From Myxococcota bacterium (GTDB taxonomy: Bacteria > Myxococcota_A > UBA9160 > SMWR01): 64,000 nucleotides of DNA. Location: positions 1 to 64,000 of the forward strand of contig JBCCEW010000020.1 in assembly GCA_039030075.1 (NCBI GenBank). The letters are read 5' to 3'. The notes below the pieces were generated by a model that was given only the letters and a program-made list of their open reading frames with translations, was not told the origin of the DNA and did no database searches. This document shows, in pieces, positions 48,047-52,019 of this stretch; position 1 is the stretch's first letter; the number at the start of each line of letters is the position of its first letter. A program made the translations under genes and the position numbers.

Positions 48047-49531
48047 TCAGGCGGACGCCGCCTCGGCGACCATCTTGCGCGCCACCCGCTCGGCGATCAT
48101 CACGCAGCCCAGATAGGTGTTGCCCGACGGGATCGTCGGCATCACGGAGGCGTCGCAGACGCGCAGGCCTGGGATGCCGTGCACCCGGCAGTCCGCGTCG
48201 AGGACCGTGCCCATCGGGCACGTGCTGGTCATGTGGGCGTAGCTGATCGTGAGTTGCTCGAGCGCCGTCGCGACGGCGTCGGGCGCGCGCAGGTCGTGCG
48301 GCACGACGGGTTCGCAGCCAAGGCTGCGCGCGGCGCTGGACTGCTCCCAGGCCGCGATCCGCGCGAAGGCATGCCCCAGTCGCGCGGGCGTGTCCTCGGG
48401 GAGGGGAGGGGCTTCCACGGCAGGGCCCGCTTCGAGGGACTCGCCCAGTCGCACGCTGCCGCGGTTGCTCGAGCGCATCGAGAAGACGGCCAGCATGAAG
48501 GTGGTGTCATCCTCGCCCGGCGGCGGCGCGATCGGGAAGGCGTGGTAGTCGACGTCCTTTCCGTTCGAGGCGCCCACCATCACCGCCTGGGCCGGGCCTC
48601 CGACACCGCCGCGTGGGCCCGGGTGCCGGTACAGGATCCCGGGGCCGAGGTGGTCGCTCATCGTGCGGCCGACGGGCAGGTCGGCGCGCACCGCGAGGCC
48701 GTGGTCGGCCAGGTGATCGGCGGGGCCGATGCCCGATTGCAGCAAGAGAAAGGGCGTGAACAGCGCACCGGCGGCCAGCACGACTTCGTCGGCTTCGAGG
48801 GTCTCGCCGGTCGCGAGGGTGACGCCTCCCACGCGGACTCCGTCGAAGACGAGGGCGCGGACCTCGGCCTGTGTGCGCAGCGTGAAGTTGTCCCGCGCGC
48901 GCACCTTCTCGTCGAGGTAGGCGAGGCTGGTCGTCACGCGCCGCGCGTTCTCGTCGATCGTCACGGGGAAGAACCCGATCCCGGGCAGCTGCGCCGGATC
49001 CTGGATGTCGGCGACCGCCGGCTCGCCAACCTCGAGCATGCCTTCGTAGTACGCACGCTGGGCGTGGCCGAGTTCGTCCATGCGCCAGCGCCGAACGGGC
49101 AGAGGGCCCGCGTCGCCGTGGATGGGCGAGGCGCCGAAGTCGAGGTCGCGCTCGGCGGCGATGAAGGTGCTCTCCACGTCTGCCCAGCCCCAGCCTTCGA
49201 GGCCCGCCGCCTCCCACGCGTCGTAGTCGGGCGGCAGTCCGCGCAGCGTGGCCAGGCCATTGATTGCAGAACAGCCACCGAGGAGGCGTCCTTGTTGCAT
49301 CGGAATCGCCCCGGTCTCCGTGGCCATCACGGTCAACGCGATCGGCGCGGCTCCCTGCCAGAGGTTGGGGGCCTCGGCTGGCGTGAGAATGGCGTCGTCG
49401 TAGGCATCGTGGTCGGGCCCGGCTTCGAGCAGGGTGACCGAGAGCGACGGTGTCTCGCTCAGTCGCGCGGCCAGGACGGCACCGGCGGTCCCGCCGCCAA
49501 CGATGATGATCCGCTTCGCTTCGGAATCCAT
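48047..49531 (-). CDS. GMC-family FAD oxidoreductase
   Basis: 494 residues; ATG after GAGGAACCC. Rossmann motif IIIVGGGTAGAVLAARLSE, the GMC signature region MQQGRLLGGCSAINGLATLRG, ADEVVLAAGALFTPFLLLQSGIGP, and the C-terminal active-site block MTSTCPMGTVLDADCRVHGIPGLRVCDASVMP (in parts) containing the His/Asn pair replaced here by Cys-Pro-Met near the usual HxxGT. It oxidises an alcohol, choline-like or sterol-type substrate. Third gene of the selenoprotein-DDN-GMC operon. Confidence 0.88.
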   Translation of the reverse strand: MDSEAKRIIIVGGGTAGAVLAARLSETPSLSVTLLEAGPDHDAYDDAILTPAEAPNLWQGAAPIALTVMATETGAIPMQQGRLLGGCSAINGLATLRGLPPDYDAWEAAGLEGWGWADVESTFIAAERDLDFGASPIHGDAGPLPVRRWRMDELGHAQRAYYEGMLEVGEPAVADIQDPAQLPGIGFFPVTIDENARRVTTSLAYLDEKVRARDNFTLRTQAEVRALVFDGVRVGGVTLATGETLEADEVVLAAGALFTPFLLLQSGIGPADHLADHGLAVRADLPVGRTMSDHLGPGILYRHPGPRGGVGGPAQAVMVGASNGKDVDYHAFPIAPPPGEDDTTFMLAVFSMRSSNRGSVRLGESLEAGPAVEAPPLPEDTPARLGHAFARIAAWEQSSAARSLGCEPVVPHDLRAPDAVATALEQLTISYAHMTSTCPMGTVLDADCRVHGIPGLRVCDASVMPTIPSGNTYLGCVMIAERVARKMVAEAASA

Positions 49532-49566
49532 GGGTTCCTCGTCGCCGCCCGATGGGCGGCTGGGCA

Positions 49567-50055
49567 CTACGCCGCGGAGGCGTCGCTCCTGGGATCCAAG
49601 CGGTAGACCTGGATGTTGCGTTCGGTCTTGGCGCGATACTTCGCGTAGTTCGGAATGTTGAGGCAGAGCCGCTCCCAGACGACTTCCTTCGCGTCATCGG
49701 AAAGTCGCGCCGCGTACACGGGGGTGGCCTGGTCGCCCAGATGCATCACGGCCTCGGGATTGGCCTGCAGGTTGTAGGACCACGCGGGATGGTGTTCACC
49801 GCCGAAGTTGCTGGCGACCACGTAGACGGCGCCGTCGACCTCGGTGTAGGCGAGCTGGGCGTCGCGTTGCTCGCCCGACTTGCGGCCGCGGGTGGTCAGG
49901 ACCAACTGGGGGACCACCACCGGTCCCGACGTGGTGAGCCGCCCCCCCGTCTTCTTGTAGATCCAGGGGTCGAACCGAGCGGCGACCGCCTTCGACAGCC
50001 AGACGCCGATGGGGGTGGTCGCGAGCCACAACTGAAAGTGTTTCATGCTCGCCAT
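49567..50055 (-). CDS. DDN-type deazaflavin (F420) dependent nitroreductase family protein
   Basis: 162 residues; ATG with CGGAG upstream, 15 bases after the selenoprotein stop. Split beta-barrel of the DDN/DUF385 family: VPQLVLTTRGRKSGEQRDAQLAY, VYVVASNFGGEHHPAWSYNLQANPEA (F420-binding basic and Gly-Gly segments, in parts), and YAKYRAKTERNIQVYRL. Family members reduce quinones, furans or nitro groups using F420H2. Together with the LLM gene it suggests F420 use by this organism. Confidence 0.87.
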   Translation of the reverse strand: MASMKHFQLWLATTPIGVWLSKAVAARFDPWIYKKTGGRLTTSGPVVVPQLVLTTRGRKSGEQRDAQLAYTEVDGAVYVVASNFGGEHHPAWSYNLQANPEAVMHLGDQATPVYAARLSDDAKEVVWERLCLNIPNYAKYRAKTERNIQVYRLDPRSDASAA

Positions 50056-50070: not shown

Positions 50071-51249
50071 TCAGGCGGGCTCGTTCGCGAGCCCGACGTT
50101 CTGGAAGCGGGCGTTGACTTCGCGCACGGCCGGCACCGCTTTCCACAGCCACGCGCCGAAGACCAGGGCCACGAGCCAGGTCGGTAGGAAGAACGCGGCG
50201 GCAACCCACGCCGCCGCGAAGCCAAGGAGGCGCAACGCCGCGACACGGATGCGCTGGTTGGGCGTGCTCCCCTCGGAGCGCTGCTCGAAGGGGACGGGTC
50301 GCAGGAACCAGCCGTTCGCCAGCAGCAGCATCACGAACAGCGGCCACGGCGCCGGCGTGGCGTCGAGCTCGGGGTCGGCATCCAGCGGCGCGTCGGTCGT
50401 GTCCCCGTCCTCCCCCGCCGTTCGAACGCGTCGCCAGACGTAGGCCGGGGTGGGGCGCGCGATCGCGCCGCCGATGTTCTGGCGGCTCGGCCGGGAGCGC
50501 CAGCGGTAGAGCACGCGACCCTCGCGGGAGAGCACCAGTACGCCGGGCTGGAAATAGCCCTTGGGGTGGGAGACCCAGTCGGCGGCGATCCACGCACTCC
50601 CCTCGCGTTCGTCGCCCCAATCGGCGGTGAAGAGCGAGAGCCAACCGCGCTGCGCGCACGCGCCCGCGATCTCCTGATGCGGGTCGCCGACGTGCACGAG
50701 ACCCGTCTCCCAGTCGTCCTGGGCGTTGCGCGCAAGCGTCTGGGGTTCGCTCGTGACGGCGTAGACTTCGCCGCCGGCCGCGCGGATCTCGTCGAGCACG
50801 CCTTCCTTCACGTAGCCGCGCAACTCGCGGCGACAGGGCGGTCACCAGAAGCCGCGGTAGAAGAGCACCACCGTGAACGCGTGCTGGGGCACGGTCTTCT
50901 CGAGCCAATCGGACCGCACGCCCGCCGGCGGATCGAGGAGGGGCGCCGGGGAGCCGTCTTCGGGGGCCGCGTCGTCCAGATTTGCCGGGTCGTCCAGATG
51001 CGCCACGTCGAAACCCGCGGGCGCAGACGAGATCGAGAAGCGTTCGCGCAGACAGACGTCCTGGCCGTCCTCTTCTCCGCACAGGATCAGCTGGAACTCC
51101 CGCACCGTGTCGTCGCTCGCGGGGACCGTGTCCGGGTCGAGGATCCCGGTGAGCTTGAACTCGCTGCCGCGTTCGCGCGAGAACGAGGCCCGGGCGGCTT
51201 CGGCCGCATCGGCGAGATGCGGCGGGATCGTCTCTTCGATTCGGGGCAT
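50071..51249 (-). CDS. Selenocysteine-containing peroxiredoxin-like membrane protein
   Basis: 392 residues if TGA at 50844-50842 is read as selenocysteine 136. The frame is unbroken on both sides. Before it: FTVVLFYRGFW; after it: PPCRRELRGYV. This is the AhpC/TSA-like FYRGxW-C-xx-C active site with Sec in place of the first Cys (Sec136, Cys139). The thioredoxin fold continues after it (GGEVYAVTSEP, LVHVGDPHQEIAGA, FQPGVLVLSREGRVLYRW) and needs the N-terminal part to be complete. The C-terminus has two to three membrane helices (PLFVMLLLANGWFL; LGFAAAWVAAAFFLPTWLVA). A bSECIS-like hairpin follows the TGA. First gene of an operon with DDN and GMC oxidoreductases. Confidence 0.85.
50812..50834 (-). 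other. SECIS-like hairpin downstream of the in-frame TGA
   Basis: In the minus-strand RNA, GCCGCG and CGCGGC form an exact 6-bp stem with the loop AGUUG, extended by a G-C and U-A pair below one C/U mismatch. The loop begins 17 bases after the UGA and has G as its second base. These are the features expected of bacterial SECIS elements (short stem, small loop with early G, 16-37 bases after UGA). Confidence 0.6.
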
Positions 51250-51285
51250 CACGGGACCTCGCATCGATTTTCCGTTGCCTGTGCT

Positions 51286-51344: not shown

Positions 51345-52019
51345 ATGAGCGAGCGCGAGAGCACGCCGGATCGCATCCTGGAGGCTGGCCGCCGGCTCTT
51401 CAACGACCAGGGCTATGCCGCGACGACCCTCACGGAGATCGCCGCCGAGGTCGGGATCTCCCAGGGCAACCTCACCTACCACTTCCCCACGAAGCAGGAT
51501 CTCGCGCTGCGGCTCGAGGCCCAGACCCGTGCCCGCTTTCACGCGCGCCGCGCCGAGGCACGCCCGGGCGACGTCGCCGACGACTACGTCGCCCACCTCC
51601 TGTTCGGGATGAACACCATCTGGGACAGTCGCTTCATTCTCCGAGATCGCGCCCAGTACCTCGATGCTGCACAGCTCGAACCCGATCCGGACCTCGCGGC
51701 CGATTTCGATGATCTCTTTGCGCTGCTCGCGCGTACCGAGAAGGAAGGGCTGTTTCGGCGAGACCTCGGCGTCGACCTGCGAGTCCTGGTGCGTTCGCTG
51801 TGGATCGTGAGCCGCTACTGGATGGATCACCTGCGCGAGGCGGAGGGGCTGCAGCAGATCGGCTGGGAGGATCAGGAGCGGGGCATTCAGCACCATTTCG
51901 CGGTGCTCCTGCCCTGTCTGACCGCCCCTGCGCGGCGCCGCTTCGAGGCCGCGCTGCATCGGGCCGTCGATGCGCCGGCGTCGGCGATGCGCGCTCGGGA
52001 CGCGGCGGCGCATGGCTAA
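51345..52019 (+). CDS. TetR-family regulator divergent from the selenoprotein operon
   Basis: 224 residues; ATG after GGGGGGGCGC. HTH: AATTLTEIAAEVGISQGNLTYHFPTKQDLALRLE, in part; the C-domain (LVRSLWIVSRYWMDHL) is like many lipid- or redox-stress-linked AcrR proteins. The clean palindrome at 51288-51307 is the expected binding site, making this the probable repressor of the selenoprotein-DDN-GMC operon. Confidence 0.9.
   Translation: MSERESTPDRILEAGRRLFNDQGYAATTLTEIAAEVGISQGNLTYHFPTKQDLALRLEAQTRARFHARRAEARPGDVADDYVAHLLFGMNTIWDSRFILRDRAQYLDAAQLEPDPDLAADFDDLFALLARTEKEGLFRRDLGVDLRVLVRSLWIVSRYWMDHLREAEGLQQIGWEDQERGIQHHFAVLLPCLTAPARRRFEAALHRAVDAPASAMRARDAAAHG

Follow-up and report, generated by a model that had tools for sequence, protein, structure and literature searches.

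A predicted selenoprotein gene coupling a Prx-like UxxC domain to an N-terminal two-cysteine domain and a C-terminal membrane hairpin

The window (the whole 64,000-nucleotide stretch of DNA that was analysed) carries on its minus strand a gene at 50071..51249, which the standard code divides into two open reading frames, 50842-51264 (140 aa) and 50071-50823 (250 aa). The only interruption of the frame 50071-51249 is the TGA at 50842..50844. When this codon is read as selenocysteine (U), the translation runs MRGPVMPRIEE...VVLFYRGFW-U-PPCRRELRGY... and stops at a terminal TGA (50071-50073) after about 392 aa. The ATG at 51249 was favoured as the start by the alignment, most homologues beginning at the equivalent position (MPxV...), and the ATG at 51264 is a possible alternative start farther upstream. 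The selenocysteine (Sec) codon is residue 141 when counted from 51264 and residue 136 when counted from ATG 51249; the Cys of UxxC, which is invariant, is residue 144 from 51264 and is encoded at 50833..50835. The preliminary description had placed the TGA at the first redox position of the motif FYRGxW-C-xx-C, with a cysteine three residues further on, and the translation, FYRGFW-U-PPC, bears this out.

A divergent TetR-family regulator (51345..52019, plus strand; PF00440/PF13972), possibly the regulator of the gene, lies on its upstream side. Downstream, on the minus strand, are a DDN-like F420H2-dependent quinone reductase (49567..50055; PF04075), possibly co-transcribed here with the selenoprotein gene, and a GMC oxidoreductase (48047..49567; PF00732/PF05199); two flavin monooxygenases were also found in the surroundings. 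Near the homologues, a similar TetR gene was detected at three loci (L106, L110 and L076), a GMC gene only at L106 and a monooxygenase at L107, L070 and L071, while a DDN gene was not found beside any other homologue among the loci examined. Clustering of the neighbouring ORFs of 34 other loci revealed no conserved partner beyond the occasional TetR or monooxygenase and one GMC gene. The context of TetR, DDN and GMC genes initially reported is thus present in the window but mostly not conserved, so that placement "under a TetR switch" is not established as a property of the family. Since the neighbours usually differ between loci, the substrate is not fixed by the neighbourhood either.

Three parts were recognized in the protein, all encoded on the minus strand. 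An N-terminal alpha/beta domain (50917..51249; pLDDT 80) contains an invariant pair of cysteines, Cys62 (codon 51079-51081) and Cys71 (codon 51052-51054), and belongs to no recognised family: no Pfam family, PDB sequence or significant fold was found for it, the best fold match being cystatin-like (E 0.098). It is followed by a thioredoxin/peroxiredoxin-fold domain with the UxxC motif (50410..50907), which matched AhpC-TSA (PF00578) in the window protein with 30.6 bits against a gathering score of 26, and in 29/29 members of the family. The C-terminal part (50101..50262) is a hydrophobic helical hairpin whose two helices, at residues 335-359 and 362-388, are predicted to lie in the membrane, and a C-terminal hydrophobic stretch was present in every member examined. 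Weak matches of the C-terminus to FA_desaturase, MscS_TM and Yip1 were judged to reflect hydrophobic composition and were discarded. In one Sec form (L015, G026:C17) an extra in-frame TAG was observed near the C-terminal helices, which would cut off part of the membrane hairpin.

The AlphaFold2 model, built on 22 sequences (pLDDT 83.3, pTM 0.69), begins with a domain of helices and a sheet (residues 15-90), continues with a thioredoxin fold at 120-285 and ends in a pair of long helices. Foldseek searches with the middle part retrieved PrxQ/Bcp and AhpC as top structures, as well as ResA, with E values of about 1e-5 to 1e-4. No N-terminal segment exceeded 1.1 on the Kyte-Doolittle scale, and the loop joining the C-terminal helices is short; on this basis the modelled protein probably sits at the inner membrane with its catalytic part on the cytosolic side. 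The architecture as a whole was not matched by any Pfam or NCBIfam model.

To delimit the family, related genomes and GTDB contigs were screened. Searched with the protein, 43 of the 98 related genomes gave matches at E <= 0.001, a count that includes fragments and matches to the redox domain alone. All the full-length loci examined among these genomes have TGA at the Sec position, except L013; this locus has TGT and, at 71% identity to the window protein, is the nearest Cys orthologue. The GTDB contig scan added TGA forms from Myxococcota, Gammaproteobacteria/Pseudomonadales and an Acidimicrobiaceae genome (an actinobacterium), and TGT forms from two Bacteroidota (Lewinella and Saprospiraceae); one Bacteroidota homologue (L076) is frameshifted. 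After removal of duplicates there were 42 distinct Sec regions with TGA and three with TGT, and every homologue covering the site had either TGA or a Cys codon. Two loci, L059 ('Spirochaeta' MED672) and L077 ('Dehalococcoidia' UBA1332), were not counted as additional phyla, being likely cases of misnaming or misbinning: the Sec region of L059 is exactly that of a same-order genome, and L077 has the one found on a gammaproteobacterial contig. No relatives were found on viral contigs or plasmids.

The position of the TGA, the motif FYRGxW-U-PPCRxELR and invariant residues on both sides were kept down to about 40% identity. In the alignments, Cys62, Cys71 and LDPP are invariant before the Sec residue, and C144, EL, GG, SEP, GDPH and VLYRW after it; around the site, R137, G138, W140, U/C141 and C144 are invariant. 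Against the nearest relatives, dN/dS was 0.18-0.28 upstream of the TGA and 0.20-0.34 downstream, both parts of the gene being under purifying selection. With the TGA, motif and flanks common to the relatives, the proposal that the two called ORFs are one frame split by TGA was confirmed; the two halves, rather than decaying independently, remain aligned and constrained, and a Cys homologue with aligned flanks exists in L013. L013 is nested among Sec forms in the tree, which is most simply read as a change there from Sec to Cys, and the L013 genome retains selA.

Immediately 3' of the TGA, a candidate bSECIS hairpin with a 6-bp stem and a 5-nt apical loop (AGUUG) was located at 50815..50831 (minus strand). 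It spans 17 nt, its loop starts 16 nt after the UGA, and its energy in the window is -13.7 kcal/mol. The limits given for bSECIS elements in Fig. 2A of PMC13188914 are a loop of 3-9 nt, a stem of 4-16 bp, a G in the first two loop positions, a distance of 16-37 nt after the UGA and an MFE <= -7.5; the window hairpin, whose second loop base is G and third is U, lies within them. RNAalifold recovered the same hairpin unaided. Across 39 distinct sequences, standard pairs occupied 98.7% of the pair cells, and in 27 cells both partners had changed; covariation scored 0.346 compared with 0.141 in shuffles (0/500 shuffles as high), whereas structures slid along the alignment paired in only 29-57% of the cells. 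All six pairs were present in 39 of 42 sequences. The middle base of codon 146 paired with the wobble base of Arg149 in 42/42 sequences, against 23.9 expected by shuffling, the combinations being CGC with CGC, TCC or GCC with CGG, and CTC or TTC with CGA or CGG. The stem was broken in all three Cys orthologues, namely L013 (by a C-C mismatch) and both Bacteroidota. The energy of the hairpin by itself is unremarkable, 17% of synonymous recodings being as stable, so the case for the RNA element rests on covariation. On the tree, 6-7 changes were counted at the covarying positions, none in the wrong direction, which are too few for a sign test.

The marine, myxobacterium-like genome of the window (5.76 Mb, 55 contigs) encodes the SelA/B/C/D system that the preliminary description had implied, and no component of the Sec machinery was missing. 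The tRNA-Sec scored 69.7 bits, above the family cut-off, and was reported by ARAGORN as tRNA-SeC with anticodon UCA; selB scored 322.6 bits (cut-off 242), selA 517 bits (cut-off 268) and selD 271 bits (cut-off 125). The selD ORF (732 aa; L118:2432-4630, G000:C6) has an N-terminal Pyr_redox_2 domain followed by SelD (AIRS) domains, and by this domain order is an Ndh-SelD fusion such as PMC2398784 reports from marine bacteria. In the genomes from which the GTDB loci come, selA was above the cut-off in 20/20 with TGA and in 0/2 of the Cys Bacteroidota. Among related genomes, it was found in 7/8 of those carrying the gene and in 7/8 of those from the same order or family without it; being frequent even where the gene is absent, selA is not specific by its presence alone. 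In one genome with a TGA gene (G050), selA was not found in the 85%-complete assembly.

Taken together, these observations make it almost certain, as a reading of sequence data, that 50071-51249 is a genuine selenoprotein gene in which UGA 50842-50844 is read as selenocysteine. Three other readings were weighed against it. In the first, the Sec codon is real but acts as a selenium switch, the N-terminal domain alone being the intended product when selenium is scarce. The predicted folding of this part as an independent domain (pLDDT 80) would suit such a role; however, with Cys orthologues the full-length protein is the product in every case, and none of the analyses run here supported a function for a truncated form, which makes a switch unlikely. 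A still less probable reading is that a variant code or near-cognate read-through puts Trp, Cys or some other amino acid, instead of Sec, at the UGA. The residue is indeed Cys in three orthologues, and a Cys-reading code would fit the alignment too. Nevertheless, the gene itself terminates in TGA, which shows that UGA still stops translation in this genome and has not been reassigned throughout; tRNA-Sec, selA, selB and selD are present; and the hairpin 3' of the codon covaries, with its loss confined to the sequences that have TGT, on which grounds a variant code was rejected. Finally, a pseudogene, in which a nonsense mutation or sequencing error has broken what was once a Cys protein into two ORFs now in decay, would account for the two frames under the standard code, the TAG of L015 and the frameshift of L076, but is scarcely credible and was rejected, as 42 distinct sequences, drawn from many different genomes and assemblies, all have this TGA between aligned flanks that are under selection, dN/dS being low on both sides.

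Other TGA-containing genes of this general type were observed in the same genome, where the pattern YRGxxW-UGA-xxC occurred at five sites compared with none for the reversed control pattern. A paralogue at G000:C17:100533-101654 (L010, L113) is 51% identical, has the TGA and the same type of hairpin. Directly upstream of it on the same strand, a shorter AhpC/TSA-type gene (G000:C17:101917-102051, L113) carries a TGA in FYRGHWUPFC, so that two selenoprotein genes appear to adjoin. Two more FYRGxW-UGA-PxC genes were found at G000:C9:150097-150282 (L114) and G000:C3:141337-141363 (L121), one with N-terminal membrane helices and the other with an apparent signal sequence; both probably encode Prx-like selenoproteins of the simpler type.

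Under the selenoprotein reading, the hairpin just 3' of the UGA would recruit SelB with Sec-tRNA, and UGA 50842-50844 would be decoded as selenocysteine, a route of insertion strongly supported by the comparisons among relatives. The product, of about 43 kDa, would consist of the N-terminal Cys-pair domain, the Prx-like UxxC fold and the C-terminal membrane hairpin. Its general role is very probably that of a thiol/selenol oxidoreductase. The Sec residue would attack a disulfide or peroxide substrate, forming a selenenyl-sulfide with Cys144, and re-reduction would come from another thiol system or from the protein's own Cys62/Cys71 pair. That this pair serves as an internal redox relay to the UxxC centre is put forward tentatively. 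If it does, the protein would represent a new class of membrane-tethered selenoenzyme with its redox partner in the same chain, transferring reducing power between the thiols of the cytosol and a membrane substrate. A test case is provided by the Cys orthologues that occur naturally, including one whose genome retains selA, alongside Sec forms of about 70% identity: such pairs would allow a direct measurement of what a membrane redox protein gains from Sec compared with Cys.

Compared with known systems, the family stands closest to the Prx-like thiol:disulfide oxidoreductase selenoproteins (PF00578, UxxC/UxxU), known since 2006-2008 from PMC1794560 and PMC2398784 (Prx-like 1-3) and reviewed in PMC13188914 (Table 1). 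With these proteins, which are common in marine bacteria, it shares the AhpC-TSA/thioredoxin fold, Sec in place of the first Cys of CxxC and a predicted redox function. It differs from them in the added N-terminal two-Cys domain and C-terminal membrane hairpin, and in a motif of its own, FYRGxWUPPCRxELR, with only 30.6 bits to PF00578. The best NCBIfam match over the redox domain, in all 29 members, was the SelL-related redox protein NF040769, but the window protein scored 20.5 against a cut-off of 120 bits, and length and architecture differ. With the Sec-containing peroxiredoxin (PxxxTxxU) it has the peroxiredoxin fold in common, as seen in the Foldseek ranking of PrxQ/Bcp and AhpC; unlike true peroxiredoxins, whose catalytic motif is given as PxxxTxxC/U in PMC13188914, the window protein lacks this motif and has UxxC (FYRGFWUPPC) at its place. 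For Prx-like 2, PMC2398784 describes a weak similarity to the N-terminal region of SelP (pfam04592), a family to which the window protein had no match in Pfam. The 2026 review table (PMC13188914) has no entry with the three-part architecture in the portion covered. An entry of Fig. S1C in PMC2398784 combines, by its name, an unknown domain with a marine Prx-like selenoprotein domain; the likeness is one of description only, and fragments of the window family may have been seen in that 2008 GOS survey. The claim of a new selenoprotein was therefore upheld for its architecture only, since the redox core belongs to the Prx-like (AhpC/TSA, UxxC) type already known and members of the family are found widely. 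What the standard code presents as two ORFs is one conserved selenoprotein gene that dozens of genomes carry, some of them more than once. It adds an uncatalogued architecture to the known selenoproteins and indicates that a little-studied Myxococcota-like order uses selenocysteine.
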